The notes beneath the pieces are model-generated. The model saw only the letters and a program-made list of their open reading frames with translations. It was not told the origin of the DNA and searched no databases. Both the position numbers and the translations under genes were made by a program. This document shows positions 2,512-20,330 of a stretch of DNA of 21,413 bases, in pieces. How positions within the stretch are numbered: position 1 is the stretch's first letter; every line of letters starts with the position of its first letter. Where the stretch lies: IMG/VR virus record IMGVR_UViG_3300040751_001544, positions 1 through 21,413 of that record. One strand, given 5' to 3'. This stretch comes from a virus.

Positions 2512-5500
2512 TTATATTACTCTGAATTTATAATTTGATCCTGCATCTTCAAGAACTGTAATTTCAATCTCTGTATTCGATTCTTTTACCCACGTATAGT
2601 GTGTACCAAGAATAGCACCACGTTCTCTGATAGCAGAGTCATAGTTAATAGAGATTGCATCGGATGTTGGAATTGAAGATTCTTGTATTCCCGGTTTCAT
2701 CATAATTGCAAGATCAAATGTGTTTGCAAAGAAAGAAGAATTTGCTGATGGGAAGTTATTCTCATCCGTTACAATTGATATTTGAGTATTACTCCACCTA
2801 TTACTCAGTCCTTCCCATTCAACTGCTTCTTTTAATGCCATAAACATATTGTTTGAGGATGCAACTGCGAATGAATTTGCTGAATATACATTTGCTTGAT
2901 TATATTTCCATACGGTATCTAATAATGCAATAGTGCGCACACCACCAGATTCAGTGACAATTTCAAATGATTGTTTATTGTCTCTAGACATAGCATAATA
3001 AACAGCAGATCCAGAAGGAACCGACTCATCAGGTGTAAATGTATTTAAATCAGTCCAAGTTGAAGTGTCAATTTGACCAGCCGCATTTGTTACTGCAATT
3101 GCCCAATCTTCAGTTCTTTTATCATCAATAAAAGAGTATCTTACAATTTTATCCAGTCCGTTATCATGCCAGTAAAAATATAAAGGTTCACCATCACCAT
3201 CAAAGGTTATTGAAAAACTAGTTCCAATATTAGTATCTACTCTAAACCATCGTGATTCTTGAGGTTGCCCATTGGTTATGAGTGTAAGAGAAGACAAGTC
3301 CCACGGAGTTGTTAATGTACGTTCGATAACAACCTGCGCATCGTTACTATGGTAGTAAAACTTATATCCATCAGGACTAAAGTCAAATCCATAGTGATCG
3401 ACTTGACCTCCTGTGTCTATCCAATAATCTGAAGAAGATGATGTTCCCGCGAAAGTTAATGTCGACAAATCCCAAGCAGTCGACATGACCCCCCTATAAT
3501 ATTGTTCTCCAGTTTCATCTTGCATGAATAGATAAAGTCCATTAGACGAAAATGTTAATCCGTTTAATCCAGTGTCACCAAAAAGGGTTTCTATTCCAGT
3601 ATGTCCTGCAGTATATGTAGCAGTTGTCAAATCAAACGCTGTAGTCAAAGTGTATTCATGTATTGTTCCTGCGTTTGAGGTAAGATCATAAACATATAAT
3701 CTAGTTCCATCTGGTTTCCATGTATGACTTTCTTGAACAATCGTGTAAGTTCCACCTTCGGTCAAATCGAACTCACTGAGAGATGCAATTCCACTTAAAT
3801 CATATGGAGTTGATAAATAAGAATAATACAAAATTCCATTGTTATCATTATCTATCGTAATTAACCCCCCACTGTCTACAACATTATGTTTTTTGACGGA
3901 CGCTGTAGTTGAATATGAACCCACATATGCCCTCTCATGCCCTAATCTGTTAGTAAAAGGAGGTCTATGATAAACATATGAATTTGTGGTAATGCCTCTT
4001 GTTGCATTAACACTTCCTGCAGTGACTGACCAATTTCCTGCAGACACATCAGAATATGATGCTAATGGTGTTGTCGCATAGTAATATCCACTTGGAGTTA
4101 AAATATTAGCAACACCAGAGTTTGCCAATATTCTTTTATGCAAATCCGATGTGCTCCAACTACCAGAAGATTTCCTCAATCCCGGTCCTGCAGAATAAGT
4201 GTAAATTTTGTCATCACTTGAAGACAGAGCAAATATTTTTGCTCCATCAGATCTAAATGCTAGGTTTGAGTACGTGGTTCGTCCAACATGAGGTATCGAT
4301 GATGCAATATGAGAACTTTCGATAAGAGTTTCCAGATCACCCGGAGTAGACATGCTATATGATATAAGTCCTTGTAACCCATACCTATAACTAGTGGTTG
4401 TGTGAACTAAAAATATTTCTGACCCATCGTCATTAAAAAACCAATCAGCATCTCTGGCAGTGCTTGAAAATATTCGATCATCTTCCCAATAATTCGTGAT
4501 TGATGTTTTCGCACCACTGTTTGTTGCACTTGTAGGATCCCAAGCAGTTGTCAATTCCCATTTATAAATTGCCGCAGTATCTTTAACGTAAACAAATTTT
4601 CCATCTGGAGAAACCAGTACAAGATCACCGGGTGCGGAAATAGTGACAGCAGGATCTAAAGATCCAATTGATGTTGCAGTAGTCAAGTCCCAAGGAGTGG
4701 ACAATTCGTAAAAATAAACGTCATCTGTCGTTGTGTCTAGTGTAGCAATATACGAACCATTAGCAGAAAAATGAAAATCCGACAGTTGGTCCGCATCGAC
4801 AAATGCTCCACCAACACTTGTGTTTGATCCAATTTCATATGGAGTAGGAAGTTTCCAATAGTTTAAATCATATGTGTTTGTACTAAAAAGATAGAAGTAT
4901 GTTCCATCATCATTAAACTGAAATCTTAATGGACCCGTGTGAGAAGGATTAAGTGATGCGGTTGTTCCAGTAGTGGGGGTATTATCATCTATCATTTCAT
5001 GCGGTTGCCAAGGGCAGTTATTTGCATATACTTTTAAAATATCTGTAGGAGGAGCTTCGTTCCAAAGATCGTAGTTACTTGCAGTTGAGTTAACATCCCA
5101 ATTGTCTTTACCAACAGTTCCAACTCCACCACCAAGTCGAGTCGCACCAACAATAGGAGCACCTTCAATTGCATTGTCGAGGGTCATCGTGTACACTTCA
5201 CTGTTTGCAAATGTCTTTGTTAGTGTTGTTGCAGAGACACCACCACCACCACTACCAATCTCAGTTCCTCCTACTGTAGAACCTGCAGGAAGAGTTACTG
5301 TATTTCCTGTTGCAGTGATCGTTGCGTCACCTAAATTTATTGATGAACCACTAAGGTATAAATCTCGAAATGCATTATCTGCAGTACCTAAGTCATATGT
5401 GACATTTGCAGAAGGAACAATTGATTCGTCAAGTGCGGCAAGATTTTTTGTAGTTGTACTAGCAACTGATTGCCAAATACCTTTTGTTGAATTGTATTTC

Positions 5501-5568
5501 CAACTCTTTCCACCACTACTAAAGATTTGTCCATTGGTAGGACTGTTTGGGAAATCGATTGATGCCAT
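2512..5568 (-). CDS. Tail-fibre-like or adhesin protein with beta-propeller-type repeats, 1018 residues
   Basis: A large virion-type protein, probably a tail fibre or receptor-binding component. The N-terminus (FPNSPTNGQIF...GKSWKYNSTKGIWQSV, residues 6-35) resembles the attachment motif at the start of many marine phage fibre proteins. Residues 105-111 form a glycine linker. Two blocks of repeats follow, about 215-460 and 576-815. Each unit pairs an 'F-S-x-D/N-G-x-x-F/Y' strand (SPDGKFVYV at 320-328, SPDGYKFYY at 731-739) with a 'Y-x-L-S/T-T-P/A-W/Y-D-L' strand (289-295, 340-344, 585-591, 640-647, 695-701, 752-758). This resembles WD40/LVIVD-type propellers. Residues 820-1018 form a distinct C-terminal region with no repeat. 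There is no catalytic motif. A late-type promoter box lies 27 bases upstream of the ATG, as expected for a structural gene. Receptor binding is inference. Confidence 0.8.
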   Translation of the reverse strand: MASIDFPNSPTNGQIFSSGGKSWKYNSTKGIWQSVASTTTKNLAALDESIVPSANVTYDLGTADNAFRDLYLSGSSINLGDATITATGNTVTLPAGSTVGGTEIGSGGGGVSATTLTKTFANSEVYTMTLDNAIEGAPIVGATRLGGGVGTVGKDNWDVNSTASNYDLWNEAPPTDILKVYANNCPWQPHEMIDDNTPTTGTTASLNPSHTGPLRFQFNDDGTYFYLFSTNTYDLNYWKLPTPYEIGSNTSVGGAFVDADQLSDFHFSANGSYIATLDTTTDDVYFYELSTPWDLTTATSIGSLDPAVTISAPGDLVLVSPDGKFVYVKDTAAIYKWELTTAWDPTSATNSGAKTSITNYWEDDRIFSSTARDADWFFNDDGSEIFLVHTTTSYRYGLQGLISYSMSTPGDLETLIESSHIASSIPHVGRTTYSNLAFRSDGAKIFALSSSDDKIYTYSAGPGLRKSSGSWSTSDLHKRILANSGVANILTPSGYYYATTPLASYSDVSAGNWSVTAGSVNATRGITTNSYVYHRPPFTNRLGHERAYVGSYSTTASVKKHNVVDSGGLITIDNDNNGILYYSYLSTPYDLSGIASLSEFDLTEGGTYTIVQESHTWKPDGTRLYVYDLTSNAGTIHEYTLTTAFDLTTATYTAGHTGIETLFGDTGLNGLTFSSNGLYLFMQDETGEQYYRGVMSTAWDLSTLTFAGTSSSSDYWIDTGGQVDHYGFDFSPDGYKFYYHSNDAQVVIERTLTTPWDLSSLTLITNGQPQESRWFRVDTNIGTSFSITFDGDGEPLYFYWHDNGLDKIVRYSFIDDKRTEDWAIAVTNAAGQIDTSTWTDLNTFTPDESVPSGSAVYYAMSRDNKQSFEIVTESGGVRTIALLDTVWKYNQANVYSANSFAVASSNNMFMALKEAVEWEGLSNRWSNTQISIVTDENNFPSANSSFFANTFDLAIMMKPGIQESSIPTSDAISINYDSAIRERGAILGTHYTWVKESNTEIEITVLEDAGSNYKFRVI

Positions 5569-7792: not shown

Positions 7793-8159
7793 CGAACTGT
7801 TTCAAATCTGGTTGAAAAAAGTTCGGTCCTTTCAGGACTTTACCGTCTTCACGGTAAATCGGTTTTCCGTCCGTTCCCAACTTTGACATATTGGATGCTT
7901 GGACTTCTTCAAAACATTTGTCGAGATCGATGCCAAAAGCATGACCTGCCCCATAGGTAACATATAAGATATCTGTGAGTGCATCAGCAACCTCTACCAT
8001 ATCAGCATTACCGATCGCCTCACGCAATTCGTTCAATTCTTCTTGAATCAATTCTAGTCTGAGTGCTATCGTATCGTTATCTGGAAATTCTGCTTGTTCT
8101 TTCACTTCTTGTCCAAACTTTTCCATAAAAGTTCCGACCATTTCAAAATTGCTATACAT
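7788..8159 (-). CDS. mazG: MazG-like nucleotide pyrophosphohydrolase
   Basis: A 123-residue all-alpha NTP pyrophosphohydrolase-type protein. The metal-binding pattern of the MazG/phosphoribosyl-ATP pyrophosphatase superfamily is visible: EELNELREAI (residues about 36-45), then EVADALTDILYVTYGAG (about 56-72), supplying the E-x-x-E and E/D-x-x-D acidic residues for Mg2+. Proteins of this type hydrolyse nucleotides such as dNTPs or alarmone-like molecules to monophosphate and pyrophosphate; MazG genes are common in marine cyanophages. The substrate cannot be read from sequence. The start codon overlaps the RegA stop as TAATG, implying coupled translation, and the gene closes the clamp-loader/RegA unit. 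An ATG six codons later is a possible alternative start. Confidence 0.85.
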   Translation of the reverse strand: MYSNFEMVGTFMEKFGQEVKEQAEFPDNDTIALRLELIQEELNELREAIGNADMVEVADALTDILYVTYGAGHAFGIDLDKCFEEVQASNMSKLGTDGKPIYREDGKVLKGPNFFQPDLKQFV

Positions 8160-8557
8160 TATTCAAAATTACCTTTTTTTCCAATATTATATTTTGCTAC
8201 TAAATTCCAATCATTCTTCTCACGATGAGGGAGAATCTTTATTTGCGATAGGGGTGCCAGTGGTTCTTTCGTTTTTGTTTCATCGACTAATTCAATTAAC
8301 TGCCACTCAGATAAGAGATTCGAAATTGCATTTCTTCTCCCACGGTCTTCGTCCCCAAAGTTAGATGGTTTACCATCTAATGCAAAAAGTTCTTTAAAGT
8401 GGACGATATAGTATCGTCCCTGTTTATGTAAAATATGACACGATTGATATATTGTTTTATCTTTTCTTGACGCAACACCGATACGTGTCAATGTCTCCCT
8501 GACCTTTAAAAAATCATCTTCATGTTTCAGTCGCACTTCTACTAATGTGTGAAGCAT
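8159..8557 (-). CDS. regA: Translational repressor RegA
   Basis: A 132-residue homologue of T4 RegA, which binds near start codons of early phage mRNAs and blocks ribosome access. The match to T4 RegA is clear along the first two thirds: EDDFLKVRETLTRIGVAS, then KDKTIYQSCHILHKQGRYYIVHFKELFALDG (residues about 33-63), then RRNAISNLLSEWQLIELV. The C-terminal part is less similar and ends in a lysine-rich AKYNIGKKGNFE. The position after gp62 is as in T4. AGGA precedes the ATG at 8557, which lies inside the gp62 gene: the two frames overlap by 38 bases. Its own leader is therefore coding sequence of gp62. Several early genes in this window are plausible targets, but no target site can be assigned. 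Confidence 0.95.
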   Translation of the reverse strand: MLHTLVEVRLKHEDDFLKVRETLTRIGVASRKDKTIYQSCHILHKQGRYYIVHFKELFALDGKPSNFGDEDRGRRNAISNLLSEWQLIELVDETKTKEPLAPLSQIKILPHREKNDWNLVAKYNIGKKGNFE

Positions 8558-8942
8558 TGTTCCTACCCTTTTCGAGTTTTTTTCTTATTAGAATCAATTG
8601 ATCTGAGGTGAGAACATTATATGCTTGCAATGCTTTCGAGTCACTGCAATTATAGTATTCTTTGATAGCATTAATATCACCATGATCTTCTTTCTTTTCC
8701 CACTTTGAGAATCTTTTTTTAGATCTCACACTATTTAGTAAAAATTCATATTGCAATAGAAAGTCTATACTAGATCTCTGATTCATTTCGTTTGCAAGTG
8801 CAACAGTGTCGTGGTGATATGATAATGCACGATTTGTCAGAAACGGGTTATATCCTTTCTCTGCCAATTGATCATTTTCAGTTCCACGCATAAGATTCTT
8901 TTTTGTTTGATTAATCGAGTTTACATAATCAAAGGGATTCAT
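8520..8942 (-). CDS. 62: Clamp-loader small subunit gp62
   Basis: A 140-residue protein assigned to the T4 gp62 family, the small subunit that joins four gp44 ATPases to load the gp45 clamp. It is recognised by position between gp44 and regA and by the weakly conserved core RSKKRFSKWEKKEDHGDINAIKEYYNCSD (positions about 73-101, resembling GKRYGKWAK in T4) followed by KALQAYNVLTSDQL. T4 gp62 has 187 residues, so this is a short version, as is usual in marine T4-like phages. AAGGAG precedes the ATG by four bases. It overlaps the upstream oxygenase gene by 14 bases and regA by 38 bases. There is no ATPase motif, as expected. Confidence 0.87.
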   Translation of the reverse strand: MNPFDYVNSINQTKKNLMRGTENDQLAEKGYNPFLTNRALSYHHDTVALANEMNQRSSIDFLLQYEFLLNSVRSKKRFSKWEKKEDHGDINAIKEYYNCSDSKALQAYNVLTSDQLILIRKKLEKGRNNASHISRSATET

Positions 8943-9453
8943 AATACTCCTTGACTTGATAGTAATCTATTTCATCTTTATTCTGTTTAAACTTCATGAT
9001 AAATGTATACCTGTCACCTTCATAATTAGATATTGTATGCTCTTCTTGTGTATTGAACAAATAAAATTTGTTAGGTTCATAGTTTACCTCATGAATTCTC
9101 TGACACCCAACAATTTTCTGATCATAGTATGGGTCTGGGTACCTAAACAGAACATGACTTCTTTGATGCTCTAAAAGCATGTTAATGGAAAGTCCTCTAT
9201 CGGTATCTTTGTGCCATCGATGATTTGTGTAAGGAAAGAATTTAGATATTCCCATACCCTCTATCGGAAACCTATTGTGTATTCTCTTTAGGATAGGTTC
9301 TTCTTCGATCAATTCCAACGGTAGTGGAGATAGAAAAAAATGATAGTAATTGAAGTACTCCATATTATCCCGATTTTGAATTAAGTAGTTATACACTGCA
9401 CCACTCGACTGTCCTAAAAGTGTGACACAATCATTCATAGTGACATTCTTCAT
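8929..9453 (-). CDS. 2-oxoglutarate/Fe(II) oxygenase-like protein inserted between gp44 and gp62
   Basis: A 174-residue protein with the double-stranded beta-helix pattern of 2OG-Fe(II) oxygenases. The metal triad and cosubstrate residue are visible: H81-x-D83 in HRWHKDTDRG, H139 in QEEHTISN, and R148 in GDRYTFIMKF. The intervening SINMLLEHQRSHVLFRYP fits the core strands. Such enzymes hydroxylate small molecules, proteins or nucleic acid bases; the substrate is unknown. Start: the ATG at 9453 overlaps the gp44 stop as ATGA with GAGGTGG seven bases upstream; an ATG two codons earlier (9459) is closer to that site. It overlaps gp62 by 14 bases. Its place splits two subunits of one complex and implies co-expression with replication proteins. 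Confidence 0.75.
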   Translation of the reverse strand: MKNVTMNDCVTLLGQSSGAVYNYLIQNRDNMEYFNYYHFFLSPLPLELIEEEPILKRIHNRFPIEGMGISKFFPYTNHRWHKDTDRGLSINMLLEHQRSHVLFRYPDPYYDQKIVGCQRIHEVNYEPNKFYLFNTQEEHTISNYEGDRYTFIMKFKQNKDEIDYYQVKEYYESL

Positions 9454-10391
9454 TTCCATTCCACCTCTACCATTAGTTCAGTTAGCATTGCCATCAGATT
9501 GATCTCTTGATCAACAACAAACGCAGACTTATATTGATAGTCTGCAAGTGTGACTACCACCTGTGGAATAGAGGAAGGAGCAACATACTCACTCATCGAG
9601 TCGTAGAGTTTGCGAAAGATTTGTGCGGTATCACCGTCAACATTCTGTGCGACCCATTTGCGGACATTGGTAAACTCTTTCTTTCTGATCCCATCAATGA
9701 GTTGCTTAATATTCACATCTTCAAAATTGACTAGGATACCTGCATCAATCTTCCCCGTAACAGAGTAACGTTGCAACTCGTTTAACACACGACGATTGTC
9801 CGGAAAGAACTTATTGATGACAGATGCTACTGCCTTGTTATCATACTCGATATTTTCTAGTTCAAGAATCTCTTTACATCTCTTATACAAGTCTGCCGCC
9901 ATTCTAGCACGTTCTTCTTTTGGAAGTTTAAACTCGATGACAGAACACCGTGAGTGTAATGGTGCGATGATCTTATTAACAAAGTTGCACGTTAGAATGA
10001 AACCACAATTTCTGGAATACTCTTCCATAAAGTTACGCAACGCAGGTTGCACTGTGTCGGCATTCAGATAGTCTGCCTCATCAAGAATCACATACTTACG
10101 TCCACCAGAAAGTGAAACAGACGATGCAAAGTTCTTGATCTTTGTGCGCAGTGTGTCGATCAGTCGTCCTTCGTCAGATCCATTGATGACAATGTAGTCG
10201 CAACCAAGTTCTTCTAATATTGCCTTTGCAACAGTCGTCTTACCAATACCTGCACTGCCAGACAAAAGTAAGTTTGGTACGTTGTCTTGGTTGACAAACT
10301 CTTTGAATGTTCGTTGCAAATCGGTTGGCAAAATAGTCGTTGCAATCTTTTTAGGACGGTATTTTTCAACCCAGAGAAAATCTTCACGCAT
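9450..10391 (-). CDS. 44: Clamp-loader large subunit gp44 (AAA+ ATPase)
   Basis: A 313-residue AAA+ ATPase, the motor subunit of the T4-type clamp loader that opens the gp45 ring and places it on primed DNA. It starts MREDFLWVEKYRP, the typical clamp-loader WVEKYRP motif. Walker A is GSAGIGKTT (residues 45-53), Walker B is VILDEADYL (101-109), and the SRC arginine-finger motif is HSRCSVIEF (146-154), followed by sensor-type and helical domains. The ATG at 10391 is preceded by GAGGT four bases away. The open frame continues 18 codons upstream, but that stretch is the tRNA-Trp gene. It is followed directly by the inserted oxygenase gene and then by its partner gp62. Confidence 0.97.
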   Translation of the reverse strand: MREDFLWVEKYRPKKIATTILPTDLQRTFKEFVNQDNVPNLLLSGSAGIGKTTVAKAILEELGCDYIVINGSDEGRLIDTLRTKIKNFASSVSLSGGRKYVILDEADYLNADTVQPALRNFMEEYSRNCGFILTCNFVNKIIAPLHSRCSVIEFKLPKEERARMAADLYKRCKEILELENIEYDNKAVASVINKFFPDNRRVLNELQRYSVTGKIDAGILVNFEDVNIKQLIDGIRKKEFTNVRKWVAQNVDGDTAQIFRKLYDSMSEYVAPSSIPQVVVTLADYQYKSAFVVDQEINLMAMLTELMVEVEWK

Positions 10392-10412
10392 GTAAACCTC
10401 ATAATAAAAAAA

Positions 10413-10486
10413 TGGCACAGGGTGAGGGAATCGAACCCCCGTCAAGGGTTTTGGAGACCCCTGTCATACCACTAGACCAACCCTGC
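10413..10486 (-). tRNA. tRNA-Trp (anticodon CCA)
   Basis: A 74-base cloverleaf including an encoded CCA end. Acceptor stem GCAGGGT pairs with ACCCTGT (one G-U pair at the top), discriminator base G as expected for bacterial tRNA-Trp. The anticodon arm is GGGGT-CTCCAAA-ACCCT, so the anticodon at positions 34-36 is CCA, and its loop is the same as in E. coli tRNA-Trp. The T arm is GGGGG-TTCGATT-CCCTC. The D stem is short (three pairs) and the variable loop has four bases. It begins five bases after the gp45 stop and ends 21 bases before the gp44 start, so it must be cut from, or read as part of, the replication mRNA. Confidence 0.93.
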
Positions 10487-10491
10487 TTGGA

Positions 10492-11151
10492 TCAACTATT
10501 ATACTCTGATCCTGCTTCAGTTGCAACCCAATACTCAACATTTTCACTCTTAAAGTGTGCGATGCCTTGCGATGAAATCTGGACTTGATAGTCATTCATA
10601 ATAAACTTTAGGTTCTCAGTTTTGAAAATGAATCTGAATTCAGAACCATGCTCACCGACTGTACGTGAAAACTCATTTGACGTTGGATTTTTAGTATCAG
10701 TAGCAACCAGAGAAATAACCCCGTCTCTTCCTCGCACTACAACTTCAGGTAGACCTAATTGATTTGCTCCGTTCTGAACTGCTTTATAGTCTTCCTTAGA
10801 CATATTGAATTGCACTTCAACAGATGGAAGTTCAATATTTTTCTCAGGAGGTCTGGTAATCATTGATGGATCTGCATACGTGTAATTCGCACGGGCGGTA
10901 CCTTCTTTTAAGGTAACCTGAGAATCACCAAAGTCAAAGTCTGCTGTGTCAAACAAAGAAGACAGTCCAAGAAATTGATTGAGTTCGTAGATAGCAAAGT
11001 CTACAGGGAATGCTTCTTCCACCTTTGCTTGAGCAAGGATAGTTTTTTGCTCCGATACTGTTCGGATAATATTACCCTTTTTAAATGCTAATGATTGATT
11101 AATAGTACTAAAATTTTTGAGCACATCAAATGTGCCATCACTGATCTTCAT
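10492..11151 (-). CDS. 45: Sliding clamp gp45 (DNA polymerase processivity factor)
   Basis: A 219-residue T4-type sliding clamp, a trimeric PCNA-like ring that tethers gp43 and, in T4, also activates late transcription with gp33 and gp55. It is recognised from MKISDGTFDVLKNFSTINQSL at the start (T4: MKLSKDTTALLKNFATIN), FPVDFAIYELNQFLGLSSLF (about residues 49-68) and YADPSMI, and the C-terminal NVEYWVATEAGSEY. I chose the ATG at 11151 by analogy with T4; another ATG directly before it (11154) and one at 11169 are possible, with GGGGA between them. It overlaps the DUF3310 gene by 14 bases. The late promoters in this window would depend on the clamp if the T4 mechanism applies. Confidence 0.95.
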   Translation of the reverse strand: MKISDGTFDVLKNFSTINQSLAFKKGNIIRTVSEQKTILAQAKVEEAFPVDFAIYELNQFLGLSSLFDTADFDFGDSQVTLKEGTARANYTYADPSMITRPPEKNIELPSVEVQFNMSKEDYKAVQNGANQLGLPEVVVRGRDGVISLVATDTKNPTSNEFSRTVGEHGSEFRFIFKTENLKFIMNDYQVQISSQGIAHFKSENVEYWVATEAGSEYNS

Positions 11152-11434
11152 CATGTAGTTCCCCATCACGGTTATTTAAATCATGTACGTGCAACTCTAT
11201 GATAGCATAGTGCAACACTTTGAGCAAGTCGGCACGATTGTATCCTGCTTTCTTACCATATCTCTGTGCATACTTGAGTATGTTTCCGATACAAAACCCA
11301 TCACCATGCCCACTGTCGATAATAAACTCTGTTGCTTGAAACTTATTCTTGCTATAGTGCTCACCATAGGTATTTTCAATATACTTGTAGAGTTCCTTCA
11401 AGTATTTGTCTTCATTATAACGAAACTTGTTCAC
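11138..11434 (-). CDS. DUF3310-family protein
   Basis: A 98-residue protein with the DUF3310 signature FCIGNILKYAQRYGKKAGYN followed by a helical segment (DLLKVLHYAIIELHVHD). The family is frequent in phage replication regions; some members are fused to nucleotide-kinase-type phage proteins, but the function of this short version is not established. The start is a GTG at 11434 directly after the TAA of the glycosyltransferase gene (TAAGTG), with only a weak ribosome site. Translation is probably coupled to the gene ahead. The end overlaps gp45 by 14 bases, so gp45 ribosome recruitment occurs inside this gene. Confidence 0.8.
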   Translation of the reverse strand: MNKFRYNEDKYLKELYKYIENTYGEHYSKNKFQATEFIIDSGHGDGFCIGNILKYAQRYGKKAGYNRADLLKVLHYAIIELHVHDLNNRDGELHDEDQ

Positions 11435-12309: not shown

Positions 12310-12322
12310 AATTTATATTATA
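12310..12322 (-). promoter_or_regulatory. AT-rich promoter-like box upstream of the glycosyltransferase
   Basis: The minus strand reads TATAATATAAATT just downstream of the terminator. It contains both a TATAAT -10-type hexamer (12322-12317) and an ATAAAT late-like core. No -35 box is visible because the terminator stem occupies that place, so a late-type promoter is the likelier reading. Its distance to the ATG is 27 bases, close to the spacing of the tail-fibre late promoter. Confidence 0.4.
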
Positions 12323-12324
12323 CT

Positions 12325-12350
12325 AAAAAAGTGGGGGTTTTACAACCCCC
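12325..12350 (-). terminator. Rho-independent terminator after the CobS-like gene
   Basis: On the minus strand the stem GGGGGTT / AACCCCC (12350-12344 with 12339-12333) closes a four-base loop, then two bases and a run of six T (12330-12325). It lies 23 bases beyond the CobS-like stop codon and should end the CobT-SH3-CobS transcript. Confidence 0.85.
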
Positions 12351-12372: not shown

Positions 12373-13485
12373 TTAATAAGGAACGTTATCATCTTCATTC
12401 ATAACACCAGAGTCAATCTTTGCGTAGAGGTCACGGAAAGATGTCTTGGTGTCTTCATCGAAACGATTGATACACATGTCAATGGCAGTCATACGATCCT
12501 CAAAGATGCTGTATGCTTTTGCGATGTGCACTAGACGACGAGTCGAGATTACCTCATCAACACCACCATCGTAGAATGTCTTACGGATGATGTCTGCCCA
12601 ATCGACTAACTTCTCACAATACTCAGTATCAGTGACTTCAAGGTCAGCAAACACTTTACCAAGAATCTTCTTCTCGATTGTTGGTGTTGGGTAGTCTTGC
12701 TCGCAAGTGATTGGGAAACGTTCTAGGAATGCTTCGTTCATCACGTTAGTTCCAATGAAACGTCCATCGTCAGAACCTTTACCCTTGGTGTTACCAGTTG
12801 CGACAACTGTGAAACCATCCGCAGGAGTAATGAACTCACCAGTCTTCTTGATGAAGTATCCCTTGCCTTCAAGGATTGATTGAAGACACATAATCTTTGC
12901 AGGGTTTGCAAGGTCAATCTCGTCGAGGAGTAGGACAGCACCCTTCTCCATTGCAGCGATCACTGGACCTTTGAAGAACTTGGTTTCACCTGCAACCAGA
13001 CGGAAACCACCGATCAAGTCGTCTTCGTCAGTCTCAAGTGTGAAGTTCACACGGATCACTTCACGACGAGTCTTTGCGCATGCTTGCTCAACAGAGAACG
13101 TCTTACCGTTACCAGACAGACCAGTCACATACACTGGGTAGAACATGCCAGACTTGATGATCTTCTCAACTGTCTTGTAGTTGCCGAATGGAACGAACAG
13201 GGGATCGACTGAAGGAACTAGGTTCTCTTTGAACCCATCAAACTCTGCAGTCAGAGTCGCAGAAGTATTTGCAACTGGTTCATCAACTTGTGGTTTAAAC
13301 TTCAAGAGCATTGGAACCTCGTAAAGACCACGACCAACACGCATGTCTTTGTTATTGAAAATAAAGGATGGTTTGCGGAAACCTTTTTCTTCGCAGAGAT
13401 CTGTGATCTGTGCCTTAGTAGCAGTGGTGCCAAACTTCTCATTGATTGCCTCGATCAAGGCAGTTTGTGGACGATTCAAATTCAT
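12373..13485 (-). CDS. cobS: CobS/MoxR-type AAA+ ATPase
   Basis: A 370-residue AAA+ ATPase of the MoxR/CobS type, the class that works with VWA-domain partners in metal chelatases and in protein remodelling. Walker A is GLSGNGKT (residues 122-129), Walker B is VLLLDEID (184-191), a sensor 1 region VVATGNTKGKG (227-237) and an arginine region FLERFP (253-258) are seen. The N-terminal 95 residues carry a winged-helix-like stretch and a linker. Genes named cobS are widespread in marine T4-like phages. The natural partner is the VWA protein encoded two genes upstream. GAGG lies eight bases ahead of the ATG at 13485. A terminator follows. Cobalt insertion into a corrin ring is known for bacterial CobNST; whether this phage protein does that is unproven. 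Confidence 0.88.
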   Translation of the reverse strand: MNLNRPQTALIEAINEKFGTTATKAQITDLCEEKGFRKPSFIFNNKDMRVGRGLYEVPMLLKFKPQVDEPVANTSATLTAEFDGFKENLVPSVDPLFVPFGNYKTVEKIIKSGMFYPVYVTGLSGNGKTFSVEQACAKTRREVIRVNFTLETDEDDLIGGFRLVAGETKFFKGPVIAAMEKGAVLLLDEIDLANPAKIMCLQSILEGKGYFIKKTGEFITPADGFTVVATGNTKGKGSDDGRFIGTNVMNEAFLERFPITCEQDYPTPTIEKKILGKVFADLEVTDTEYCEKLVDWADIIRKTFYDGGVDEVISTRRLVHIAKAYSIFEDRMTAIDMCINRFDEDTKTSFRDLYAKIDSGVMNEDDNVPY

Positions 13486-13507
13486 AATATATTCCTCTCT
13501 CAATTTC

Positions 13508-13684
13508 TCAAACTAACTCTTGGATTTTTGCCCAAGGATAAGGGTGTGCTCTTTTTCGTGTTTCTGTGTAGACCTTGAGACCTTGTGCAGTCTCTCCAAT
13601 GACCTTGCCTTCAACCCACACAAGACTGAACTTGTCACCGAATTCTTTTGGGAGTTTCACTAGAACTTTATCACCGATTTTCAT
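13508..13684 (-). CDS. Small SH3/KOW-like basic protein, 58 residues
   Basis: A short protein, MKIGDKVLVKLPKEFGDKF... with a VWVEGKVIGETAQGLKVYTE middle and a basic ARG/LYS/HIS-rich end RKRAHPYPWAKIQELV. The 'GDKV-V ... GKVIG ... GLKVYT' pattern suggests a small beta-barrel of SH3 or KOW type; this is inference from pattern only. AGGTGA sits just before the ATG at 13684. It lies between the VWA protein and the CobS-like ATPase with gaps of about 70 and 22 bases, so it belongs to the same transcript. It could be an adaptor for that pair or unrelated. A 16-base leader element shared with the gene at 2391 precedes it. Confidence 0.7.
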   Translation of the reverse strand: MKIGDKVLVKLPKEFGDKFSLVWVEGKVIGETAQGLKVYTETRKRAHPYPWAKIQELV

Positions 13685-13691
13685 ACTCACC

Positions 13692-13707
13692 TCTCTCAAT
13701 CAACATA
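13692..13707 (-). repeat. 16-base leader element, copy 2 (copy 1 at 2404-2419)
   Basis: On the minus strand TATGTTGATTGAGAGA occurs exactly here and at 2419-2404. In both places it lies directly upstream of the ribosome site and start codon. The TTGAGAGAGG end also occurs before the CobS-like gene at 13503-13494. It is the longest exact leader match I found. Confidence 0.6.
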
Positions 13708-13733
13708 GGTAGTGTCTCATATCTGACACCACC
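13708..13733 (-). other. Nine-pair hairpin between the VWA gene and the SH3-like gene
   Basis: On the minus strand GGTGGTGTC and GACACTACC pair over nine positions (one G-U) around an eight-base loop. No T-run follows in the direction of transcription, so it does not look like a terminator. It sits directly before the shared 16-base leader element and may be an mRNA processing or stability element. Confidence 0.5.
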
Positions 13734-13754
13734 TGTATAATGGTATTTTTCTAT

Positions 13755-15920
13755 TTAAGCAACCATTTCGATAAACTGTGACAATAACACTCGTGATGTC
13801 TTACGCTGTGCATTTGCCTTCTTGAATGCGGTACGGATTGCACCAACCTTTGCATCATCCGCAACTTCAATCGACGTGTTTGAAACCTCAAGGTTCTTGC
13901 CACCCTGAATCGCAAAGAACTTGCTATAACCACAGTTAGGAATCGTGGTGAACTTGTTCTTCTTGAGTTCTTCAGTGAACTTGTTGAACTGTTCGTAAGA
14001 AAGACCTGCACTACGGAGATCAGACATTATCGAACGTTTGTTCTGTGGAAGGATACGGTATCCAATCGCATTCGAACCAGTGTGGTCTTGAAACATTTCA
14101 AGCAGTGCCTTAGTGTATCCGTTACGATCTTGAAGACGATACTGTTTCTTGGTCACTGGGTCAATAAACTTGACGATATTGTCACGACCAGTTAGGTGCC
14201 ATGTCGGAACGTTGGTATTAATCTTTCCTTCTTTGTAAGTAGAAGGAATGCTACACTCGATTGGGTGACTATCACCATCTGTTAGGAACACATTGTTCAC
14301 GATATCGAGACGGTTAGACTTCCGGAACTCTTTGGTGATCTGCATACCTGCCATGATTGCATCGTCCAGAGGTGTTCCCCCAAGGAAGAATTGATATGGC
14401 AAGTGGTAAGACACATCTTTTGAGTAGTTCTGTCCGATTGCAAGAAGCATCTGTGCCATCTTGGTGAACTCAGAACGGTTCATCTTGTTATTGAAGAACT
14501 CCATCAAACGGAACCCTGTCTTGTATTGGAGTGTGTTCACACTAACAGTATTTGCTAAAGTATTTGCCATTTCGGTGAAACGATCAGAGAACGCATACAC
14601 ACGGTATGGGATGTTGACTTGACGACAGAACATCACAAGGTTCAACAACTGATCAATCGTAGGTTTCATGTGCTTGTGCATTGAACCAGACCAATCGAGG
14701 TACAGTACCATACCGTGGTTCTTACCTTCTGGAGTCACAGACATCTTGCGGAAGATGTCGTCAGAGAACTTGTAGTTGTTCATCTTTACTGGACAGATAA
14801 CACCAGTCTTTGCGAGAGTCGTGCGAGCATACTCAGATGCTTTCTTCTTCATCTCGAACTCTTTGACCATGTAGTTCACAGACTTCTTGTTGTTTACTTG
14901 GAACTCTTTCCACAGTTTCTCACCATATTCTGCAAGGTGTGCTTTGGGTGTTCCGTAACAAGATGGGTTTGCACCATAACCCATAACTGTTTTGTAATCG
15001 ATAATCAAGTCATCAATCTTGTTTGTGTTTAGACGCAGGTTAAACACCTTGGTGTCACCATCATCACCAAACTCTTTGCGGATGTTATTGTGAAGTGCTT
15101 CTTCAGTCTTAGAGATTGGATCAGTTGAATCTAGTTGATCTTCAATCTCTCCCTCACCCTCTTCTTCAGAAGGATCAAACTCATCCTCTTCTTCATCGGC
15201 ATCTTCATCAGTGTCTGCGCTTTGCGACTCGTTGCTTTCTTGCTCCTCATCACCATCGTTATCCATCTCCCAATCATTCTGATTGTAACCGTCAGTCTCG
15301 ACCTCTTCGGTTTGATCTTGACCTTCTTCCATCATTTGTTGTTGTTCTTCTTCTTGCTTCTCAAGTTCTTCTTCTTTCTTTGCTTTCTCTTGAGCAAACA
15401 AACGATCAGCAATATCTACCACTTCTTCCCAAGTAGCACAATCACGAATTTCGTTGATCCATGGAAGTTCGTCTTTCTCAATACGGACTCCAGAAGTTTC
15501 ACCTAACTTGAAGTAAGTATTTATGCGGTCAATCAGATCGAACTCATTGATCTCATCGAGGTTCGCACCAAAGAAACCATCTGCAAATAGTTTGCGATAA
15601 CTCTTGATAAAGTTTCGACGCAGACCGGGGTACTTGTTCTGAATCATACGTTCGATACGTGCATCTTCGATTACGTTAAGGAAAGACTTATACGCACGTC
15701 CACGGTCACACACAGCATCGTGCCAACCGTCTTCTGGAGTGTAGAGTGCGTGACCAACCTCGTGACCGATGAAGTGATCGTAGTTGTCACCTGTAAGGTC
15801 TTCCCACAGTGGCAGTGTTAAAACACGGTCACGGACGTTGAAAGACGCAGTAGGTGCATTCTCGTGCACAACAGTAATGTTCTCTGTTGCGAGTAGTTTT
15901 GCTAGAATGTCTTTTTGCAT
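13755..15920 (-). CDS. CobT-like zincin plus VWA-domain protein
   Basis: A 721-residue protein in three parts. The N-terminal domain has a zinc-peptidase signature HEVGH (residues 53-57) and NVIEDARIE (82-90), which supplies a possible third ligand and resembles the equivalent part of CobT. Residues about 176-265 are a very acidic, low-complexity linker. The C-terminal VWA domain has a complete MIDAS: DWSGS (409-413), GGTP (514-517, Thr516) and TDGD (547-550). This layout fits the VWA subunits that pair with MoxR/CobS AAA ATPases, and the CobS-like partner is encoded downstream. Bacterial CobT is part of cobaltochelatase; here an intact HExxH raises the option of real proteolysis. GAGAGG precedes the ATG. 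A sigma70-like promoter lies upstream. Confidence 0.85.
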   Translation of the reverse strand: MQKDILAKLLATENITVVHENAPTASFNVRDRVLTLPLWEDLTGDNYDHFIGHEVGHALYTPEDGWHDAVCDRGRAYKSFLNVIEDARIERMIQNKYPGLRRNFIKSYRKLFADGFFGANLDEINEFDLIDRINTYFKLGETSGVRIEKDELPWINEIRDCATWEEVVDIADRLFAQEKAKKEEELEKQEEEQQQMMEEGQDQTEEVETDGYNQNDWEMDNDGDEEQESNESQSADTDEDADEEEDEFDPSEEEGEGEIEDQLDSTDPISKTEEALHNNIRKEFGDDGDTKVFNLRLNTNKIDDLIIDYKTVMGYGANPSCYGTPKAHLAEYGEKLWKEFQVNNKKSVNYMVKEFEMKKKASEYARTTLAKTGVICPVKMNNYKFSDDIFRKMSVTPEGKNHGMVLYLDWSGSMHKHMKPTIDQLLNLVMFCRQVNIPYRVYAFSDRFTEMANTLANTVSVNTLQYKTGFRLMEFFNNKMNRSEFTKMAQMLLAIGQNYSKDVSYHLPYQFFLGGTPLDDAIMAGMQITKEFRKSNRLDIVNNVFLTDGDSHPIECSIPSTYKEGKINTNVPTWHLTGRDNIVKFIDPVTKKQYRLQDRNGYTKALLEMFQDHTGSNAIGYRILPQNKRSIMSDLRSAGLSYEQFNKFTEELKKNKFTTIPNCGYSKFFAIQGGKNLEVSNTSIEVADDAKVGAIRTAFKKANAQRKTSRVLLSQFIEMVA

Positions 15921-15946: not shown

Positions 15947-15975
15947 AGTGTAATCGATTCTTTGGAGTAGGTCAA
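15947..15975 (-). promoter_or_regulatory. Sigma70-like promoter upstream of the CobT-like/SH3/CobS-like unit
   Basis: On the minus strand TTGACC (15975-15970) is followed after 17 bases by TACACT (15952-15947). The -10 hexamer is poor, but the ten bases AAGTGTTGAC ending in the -35 core are identical to those of the promoter at 2445-2455. It lies in the 108-base gap between the methyltransferase and the CobT-like gene. I saw no clear GC-rich terminator in that gap. Confidence 0.6.
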
Positions 15976-19508: not shown

Positions 19509-20330
19509 TCACCTTATGTAATTACTATTCCCTACCACCCAAAAACAAGAAGTCTCATTTGGATCTAGAATTTGTTCCATCATTTCATACGATTTTGATT
19601 CATAGATCATATCCAATTCGAACCCCACATTTTTCCTCAACAGTTTGTTGTATGCATAGTTTCCGGTGCGATATTCATATCTGTACTCCCATACTGGAAG
19701 TTCTAGATTTTTATGCACATCCTTTGTTCTATCATATCCAAAAGGTTGAAGTGCCACGATTTTGAATTTCTTATCATATAGTTTAACACCTTCCAGTATT
19801 CCTGTCAATGTAACACCACTTCCTACGGGGATATACAATGTATCACAATCAACGTTCTGCACTTGTTCTGCTATTTTTCCAATAATTGAAGAACGATATT
19901 TTTGTGCGGCATAACCAAACAACACTTTGAACATAGGTCTAGTATCTGCAAGTTTGTTTAAGTTTGAGTATAACACATTGTTGAACCCCTGAGTCTCACT
20001 TAAAACCACCATCTCAGATCCAAGATCGTGGCACATTTTCATTGCCTTTCTTTTGAGTGCTTTTTCAACAGTGGTGTTTCCAAAACCAATAATTGAATTT
20101 AGACCAAATTCCTCTGCGACTTTAGATACAATTACTGCCTGTGGTGAATGGATCGAGCTTGCGGTTGAGATTGTCGAATCGCATTCATTTTTAATATAAT
20201 CTAAATTAGTTTCAATTAGATCACGGCATTGTCGAATTTTTCCACCTGTAACAAAGTCAGACCCGTAGGGTGCGTACAGATCTTCCCTCTTAAACAGGAT
20301 AGAATTATATTCTTCTACAGGTGTAATCAT
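19509..20330 (-). CDS. Fold-type II PLP-dependent enzyme, ACC deaminase/cysteine desulfhydrase-like
   Basis: A 273-residue PLP enzyme of the tryptophan-synthase-beta fold. The N-terminal FKREDLY...GGKIRQCRD (residues 13-37) carries K31 in a 'GGK-x-R' context where related enzymes bind PLP. STASSIHSPQAVIVSKVAEEFGL (55-77) matches the substrate-binding 'SNHxxQ..A.A...LGL' region, and PVGSGVTLTGILEG (168-181) is the glycine loop for the PLP phosphate. The ending FWVVGNS resembles the C-terminal strand of ACC deaminases and D-cysteine desulfhydrases, and the protein is a little short (families are usually 320-340). It may act on an amino acid or an amino-acid-like group. No clear ribosome site is seen before the ATG; the Api92-like stop is nine bases upstream. 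Confidence 0.75.
   Translation of the reverse strand: MITPVEEYNSILFKREDLYAPYGSDFVTGGKIRQCRDLIETNLDYIKNECDSTISTASSIHSPQAVIVSKVAEEFGLNSIIGFGNTTVEKALKRKAMKMCHDLGSEMVVLSETQGFNNVLYSNLNKLADTRPMFKVLFGYAAQKYRSSIIGKIAEQVQNVDCDTLYIPVGSGVTLTGILEGVKLYDKKFKIVALQPFGYDRTKDVHKNLELPVWEYRYEYRTGNYAYNKLLRKNVGFELDMIYESKSYEMMEQILDPNETSCFWVVGNSNYIR

Follow-up and report, generated by a model that had tools for sequence, protein, structure and literature searches.

A MoxR-type ATPase and a VWA protein with a zincin-like domain in the replication region of a T4-like phage

The sequence analysed here, referred to as the window, is the IMG/VR virus record IMGVR_UViG_3300040751_001544, a fragment of 21,413 bases that carries on its minus strand a gene module encoding a VWA protein (15920→13755), a protein of 58 residues (13684→13508) and a MoxR-type ATPase (13485→12373). 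The ATPase–VWA pair is already known as phrog_249 and phrog_459, families to which the two window proteins match over nearly the full profile length; it belongs to the core genes of T4-like cyanophages and has been described as a "cobST" that hijacks the host CobN. The parts of the two proteins are as follows.

13755..15920 (–): VWA–zincin protein of 721 residues ("peptidase", phage "CobT"); phrog_459, E 1e-195; AlphaFold2 (AF2) model with a predicted local distance difference test (pLDDT) of 75
15366..15920 (–): N-terminal zincin-like domain, residues 1–185; domain model pLDDT 86.7
15750..15764 (–): HEVGH, residues 53–57, with two putative zinc ligands and the putative catalytic Glu54
15651..15677 (–): NVIEDARIE, residues 82–90, with Glu85 as the putative third zinc ligand
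15111..15365 (–): acidic disordered linker, residues 186–270; 40 Asp/Glu and 1 Lys/Arg of 85; pLDDT below 50 at 199–264
13755..14723 (–): VWA domain, approximately residues 400–721, with a full MIDAS (D409, S411, S413, T516, D548)
12373..13485 (–): MoxR-type AAA+ ATPase ("CobS"), 370 residues from the ATG; AAA_5 66.6 bits (cut-off 22); phrog_249, E 1.1e-122
13099..13122 (–): Walker A of the ATPase; G128, G131, G133 and K134 invariant in the covering rows
12919..12936 (–): Walker B of the ATPase; D194 and E195 invariant (67/67)

Conservation of the VWA protein and its pairing with the ATPase

Every feature that an earlier, sequence-only reading had pointed out, the MoxR-type ATPase and the VWA protein with its full MIDAS, acidic linker and HEVGH, is present where that reading had placed it, and the window has the arrangement characteristic of MoxR–VWA pairs, an AAA_5 ATPase adjoining a VWA protein with a MIDAS. 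The open reading frame (ORF) of the ATPase spans 12373–13503 (–) with two candidate starts, of which the ATG at 13485, preceded by a GAGAGAGG box as in the related loci L002 and L004, is the likely one, and the TTG at 13503 is disfavoured.

A scan of IMG/VR with the window VWA protein yielded 79 loci, which were aligned together with the window, S-PM2 and the Ochrobactrum phage OC; merging of identical proteins left 74 rows, 71 of which cover the HExxH motif, the proteins of L006, L038 and L040 being truncated before it. Residues H53, E54, H57, N82, E85, D86 and R88 are invariant in all 71 covering rows, every one of the 74 rows has the five MIDAS residues, and the invariance of the HExxH, the Glu motif and the MIDAS extends to proteins of 19% identity in the most distant row, while the sequence of the acidic linker diverges freely. 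The combination expected of a zincin, an HExxH with a conserved downstream third ligand, is hence found in 71/71 rows, and the invariance of the putative HExxH and Glu85 site across relatives is new here. The proposal of an intact zinc-peptidase motif in the sequence-only reading, which a lack of conservation of HEVGH in relatives would have spoken against, is borne out, both HEVGH and the Glu motif being invariant.

A further 18 relatives lie on contigs of prokaryote genomes, many of these contigs being probably of phages and binned into metagenome-assembled genomes; 17 of the 18 carry the motif, and the remaining protein (L098) is truncated before it. Among 16 named phages, selected from the hits for diversity and not independent of each other, the HExxH is retained in 13. 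In annotated phages both proteins match equal numbers of records (Synechococcus 365, "Cyanophage" 61, Prochlorococcus 24).

The ATPase gene lies directly behind the VWA gene in 73 of the 79 loci, and the remaining six have a contig end within 111 bases. A different partner is found in the Staphylococcus G1, Listeria 20422-1 and Acinetobacter R2096 phages, where CobS-like ATPases matching phrog_249 adjoin a DUF7192 protein instead of a VWA protein (L083 5038–5883, L084 4797–5642, L085 4901–5794), and inspection of these DUF7192 proteins by eye revealed neither a MIDAS nor an HExxH. The pairing with DUF7192 proteins in other phages sets the ATPase family apart from cobalamin.

Fold of the N-terminal domain and its relation to CobT

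The full AF2 model consists of a mixed N-terminal domain, the disordered acidic stretch and the VWA domain. The best structural matches of the VWA domain are human MDN1-MIDAS (Z 16.7, root-mean-square deviation 3.5, 223 residues aligned) and NorD of NorQD (Z 16.6, root-mean-square deviation 4.8, 248 aligned), each of which partners an AAA+ motor. For the model of the N-terminal domain, the 20 best VIA structural rows are without exception metallopeptidases or proteins of known zincin fold (Z 4.8–7.3), among them ZMPSTE24 (7.3), ArdC (6.4), BlaR1 (6.2), abylysin (6.0) and IrrE (5.5). A comparison with viral models matched the domain to VWA proteins from many tailed phages and from the haloarchaeal tailed viruses HHTV-2, HCTV-2 and HVTV-1; its matches to SprT-like and IrrE-like proteins are weaker. 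A phmmer search of PDB sequences gave no match. As modelled, the N-terminal domain appears to resemble zincins, which is new here.

Residues 50–124 of the window VWA protein match phrog_1576, the family of SSU5, RHEph10 and nickie (E 3.5e-8). In hhalign comparisons the window-type and SSU5-like N-terminal domains score 98%, and the SSU5-like and cellular CobT N-terminal domains 96.7% (E 3.8e-10); the SSU5 protein itself passes the Pfam models CobT (129.6 bits) and CobT_C (374.4 bits) with its HExxH retained. By these alignments the N-terminal domain of the window protein is homologous, through the SSU5-like phage proteins, to that of bacterial CobT, a relation that is likewise new here.

The comparison with cells covered 52 cellular CobT ORFs, composed of the 40 best-scoring loci and 12 weak or chosen ones from 109 genome hits (one genome counted twice). 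At the aligned HExxH the first His is present in 0/52, the Glu in 0/52 and the third-position His in 2/52, and the putative third-ligand Glu is retained in 51/52 and the Arg next to it in 52/52. The window protein is unlike these sampled proteins, which lack the catalytic zinc positions, in keeping H53, E54 and H57. One CobT ORF carries an unrelated HEPAH in a long N-terminal extension. Since the N-terminal domains are homologous and the first His and the Glu are gone from CobT, the alignments make CobT the homologue whose zinc site is dead, and the live-looking site is that of the phage protein.

The description of the pair as chelatase-like stands for its architecture, which is that of CobS/CobT, and fails for family membership, as both window proteins fall far below the curated models. 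The ATPase scores 80.7 bits against the cut-off of 558.55 of the CobS equivalog TIGR01650 and thus lies outside that family, and the VWA protein has no match to the CobT models TIGR01651 (at E 0.1) or PF06213 of Pfam (at E 1), whereas a true CobT used as a control (L129) scores 902.5 against the TIGR01651 cut-off of 759.05. The absence of a CobN-like subunit from the window, itself a 21 kb fragment, is in line with the result that PF02514 (CobN/ChlH) was found in none of the 12 complete phage records searched, that of S-PM2 among them. The failure against the curated models and the missing CobN are new here as well, and the window pair is probably not part of a cobaltochelatase.

Nor do CobT and CobN always go together in cells. 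Of 96 alphaproteobacterial genomes, in a tally that was made by hand and concerns genomes whose completeness is not given, 68 have CobT, 39 have PF02514 and 37 have both, so that 31 of the 68 carry CobT alone; the control genome of Caulobacter vibrioides likewise has a CobT match and no PF02514 match. Disruption of Caulobacter cobT is reported to affect fitness under EDTA (PMC12004947). Cellular CobS/CobT may therefore have a role without CobN.

Expression signals, the small protein and the genomic setting

The following elements were located around and within the module.

15947..15975 (–): putative sigma-70-type promoter of the module, TTGACC-17-TACACT, 27–55 bases before the VWA start
12333..12350 (–): intrinsic terminator behind the ATPase gene, GGGGGTT-GTAA-AACCCCC, a 7-pair stem followed by ACTTTTTT
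13508..13684 (–): 58-residue protein between the VWA and ATPase genes, from the ATG at 13684; optional and non-core

The sequence-only reading had given the module a promoter and a terminator of its own, and both sites were found with counterparts in close relatives. A promoter scan alone performs no better than chance (9 found vs 6.7 expected by shuffling); counterparts of the promoter lie upstream of the VWA gene in L002, L004, L005, L018 and L019, L004 and L019 being identical there. The terminator arrangement is the same in L002, L005 and L018, and L004 has another gene at this place. In the window (12317–12350, –) and in L002, L005 and L018 the next unit seems to have the -35 box of its promoter inside the module terminator, and in L002-type relatives the terminator overlaps, as judged by eye, a TTGACT…TATAAT pair of that unit. 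A 10-pair inverted repeat without a T-run (13707–13734, –), located behind the VWA stop codon and ahead of the following gene and kept in L002, L004, L005 and L018, is possibly a processing or attenuation element.

The 58-residue protein, which had been called SH3-like and suggested as a possible adaptor between the two partners, has no PHROG or NCBIfam family match and only one Pfam model below its cut-off. Among the 79 relatives it occurs solely in L005, where it is 97% identical and the VWA protein 65% identical; L002, L004 and L018, which are nearer in the VWA protein, do not have it, and their flanks are closed up. Because it is present in just 1/79 relatives, the suggestion of a core adaptor was dropped, and the protein is an optional insert and not a part of the module, which is also new here.

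The surroundings of the module mark the window as a T4-like phage replication region, by gene content and by a general gene order that matches S-PM2, HTVC008M and the Ochrobactrum phage OC.

16029–17159: DNA methyltransferase, upstream (Pfam and PHROG matches)
Downstream: glycosyltransferase-like gene (weak Pfam matches)
10492–11169: gp45 sliding clamp, downstream
9450–10445: gp44 clamp loader, downstream
8520–8942: gp62, downstream
8159–8557: regA, downstream
Downstream: MazG and Hsp20 genes
Downstream: family-B DNA polymerase, truncated by the left edge of the window

Elsewhere in the window, an ORF of 1018 residues (2512–5568, –) has no PHROG or Pfam match, and a protein resembling pyridoxal-phosphate enzymes (19509–20330, –; PF00291, 33.1 bits vs a cut-off of 35) is encoded close to genes for DNA methyltransferase and kinase.

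In 14 of the 16 named phages the fetched stretch includes a gene for replication, for recombination or for a polymerase, a count given without a null, the stretches differing in length and replication genes being common in phages. DNA polymerase III alpha is found near the pair in SSU5, Cyrano, Klebsiella ST13, nickie, hairong, RHEph10, V1VFA-S and ANB28, a polymerase and a primase/helicase in T5S1, a primase in ICP2, a RecA-family ATPase in Mae-Yong1326-1, and gp46-type and gp45/gp44-type genes in S-PM2, OC and HTVC008M; the other two, CRP-810 and Hotorobo, have a DNA-repair enzyme and no more than an HNH endonuclease, respectively. The pair thus adjoins replication genes in several unrelated lineages, which is new here. 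It also occurs in phages of Escherichia coli, Salmonella, Vibrio cholerae, Klebsiella and Pelagibacter, the host of Cyrano being taken from its name, hosts that are not known to have CobN. In cyanophages, cobS was counted among 25 core genes by Sullivan et al. 2010 (PMC3037559).

Interpretation and related systems

With moderate confidence, we regard the pair as a protein-remodelling machine of the phage, similar to NorQD, to which a probably active metallopeptidase is attached. The domains, the invariant catalytic residues, the gene pairing, the promoter-like site and the replication-gene neighbourhood are observed here; metal binding, proteolysis, timing and target are inferred. Proteolysis by the window VWA protein is likely on the pattern of conservation: the Glu of a zincin HExxH is catalytic and not a ligand, and as Glu54 is invariant, chemistry is favoured over mere metal binding. 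The module would be transcribed from a host-type promoter, and the ATPase would assemble into a ring in whose pore the VWA domain of the partner docks, the MIDAS metal then gripping an acidic residue of a target protein, both as in NorQ/NorD. Hydrolysis of ATP would pull on the target or open it, and what is exposed could be cut by the N-terminal zincin domain, which the flexible acidic linker would keep attached; likely targets would be proteins of phage DNA replication or ones obstructing it. The ring, the VWA domain in its pore and the grip of the MIDAS are drawn by analogy from the NorQD study (PMC9976466).

Several observations weigh against this interpretation. The Z values of 5-7 for the N-terminal domain fall in a range that the tool calls common, and a Foldseek search of the domain against the PDB gave no match better than E 0.17. 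When T4-like and CobT N-terminal domains are aligned directly, the hhalign probability is 25% (8% for the VWA parts), and the relation is strong only via the bridging SSU5-like phage sequences. Furthermore, neither His of the HExxH is left in nickie, hairong and ANB28, which nevertheless retain the VWA protein, its MIDAS and the ATPase (L164 1828–3912, L180 1741–3819 and L176 2358–4343, which are natural controls), so catalysis is not needed everywhere in the family.

These three phages speak for a pure remodelling chaperone, in which the zincin fold would bind metal or protein without cutting, the zinc site being structural or a substrate sensor, and the ATPase would do the work as in NorQD or RavA–ViaA. 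Cellular CobT functions without the HExxH residues, and the nearest VWA folds come from remodelling machines; a structural site, however, would not require Glu54, which is as invariant as the ligands (71/71), and we consider a chaperone of this kind rather unlikely. The proposal of Liu et al. 2021 (PMC8651126), in which the phage pair joins a host CobN and boosts cobalamin, is improbable. The homology to CobS/CobT is real, and cyanobacterial hosts carry PF02514 proteins (both cyanobacterial genomes searched, Synechococcus elongatus being among the controls), but the window proteins miss the CobS and CobT models that a true CobT passes, the HExxH kept in phages has lost its first His and its Glu in 52/52 cellular proteins, none of the 12 phage records has CobN, and some phages with the pair infect E. 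coli, Salmonella, Vibrio cholerae or Pelagibacter, which are not known to possess CobN. That the module is a decaying host-derived cassette without a role has in its favour nothing but the divergence of the linker sequence and is extremely improbable, the motifs being invariant across 71–74 rows and the gene order kept; lone decaying ORFs are ruled out by the same conservation.

The data suggest that the database label "peptidase" of the phage VWA protein has substance, and for the family of the window the common label "B12 auxiliary gene" of phage cobS is poorly supported. A wider and more tentative proposition, which we hold to be possible but doubtful, is that phage "cobST", in bacterial and archaeal tailed viruses alike, is a replication-linked, ATP-driven metalloprotease that works in the manner of FtsH or Spartan but combines MoxR, VWA and zincin parts; CobT would be its catalytically dead relative, and ocean surveys, in which viral cobS is frequently read as a "vitamin B12" gene, would have misassigned it. 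In a limited literature search, whose one hit on CobT with metalloprotease concerned CLPP, we found no argument in print for the metallopeptidase reading, although databases already call the protein "peptidase"; a literature search for cobS misannotation found no paper. Viral cobS, which is read as B12 synthesis, is among the most reported auxiliary metabolic genes: it takes second place by frequency in water samples from the Baltic Sea and is part of a globally conserved set (PMC9301287). If the family is a protein-remodelling protease, the ecological inference of B12 synthesis from viral cobS falls; such a role would also explain the core-gene status of the pair in T4-like marine phages, would relate CobT to an active enzyme and would raise the question of which phage or host protein needs cutting or opening at replication.

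Among known systems, NorQ/NorD, RavA/ViaA and midasin combine a MoxR-type or midasin AAA+ motor with a VWA/MIDAS partner, and NorD and midasin supply the best VWA folds; we know of no HExxH zincin N-terminal domain in them. DUF2201 proteins (PF13203, "putative metallopeptidase", with the VWA-like PF09967) are likewise adjoined by a MoxR-like ATPase (L171, L172), but those encountered are of approximately 400 residues, against 721 for the window protein. The window proteins have no match to PF13203 (DUF2201_N) at E 1 and do not belong to that family; L095/L173, which is related to the window protein, reaches 18.6 bits and so stays below the cut-off of 23.2, and in two genome sets PF13203 matched 0/12 and 4/12, three of the matches being above the cut-off. 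The alphaproteobacterial cobaltochelatase CobS/CobT shares the homologous N-terminal domain, the MoxR–VWA architecture and the acidic linker, and differs by the loss of the first His and the catalytic Glu from CobT, with the third-ligand Glu retained. The SSU5-like "CobT/CobS" (phrog_1576) has the HExxH and Glu motif, a VWA domain, an adjoining ATPase and the sequence link of the N-terminal domain, although the SSU5 protein passes the Pfam CobT models and adjoins DNA polymerase III alpha. Another close system is the pair S-PM2p119/p120 of T4-like cyanophages (phrog_459 "peptidase" and phrog_249 "porphyrin biosynthesis"), which agrees in family, in order and in the neighbourhood gp46–VWA–CobS–gp45–gp44, and from which the window differs in a VWA protein of approximately 33% identity and in the additional ORF of 58 residues between the two genes.

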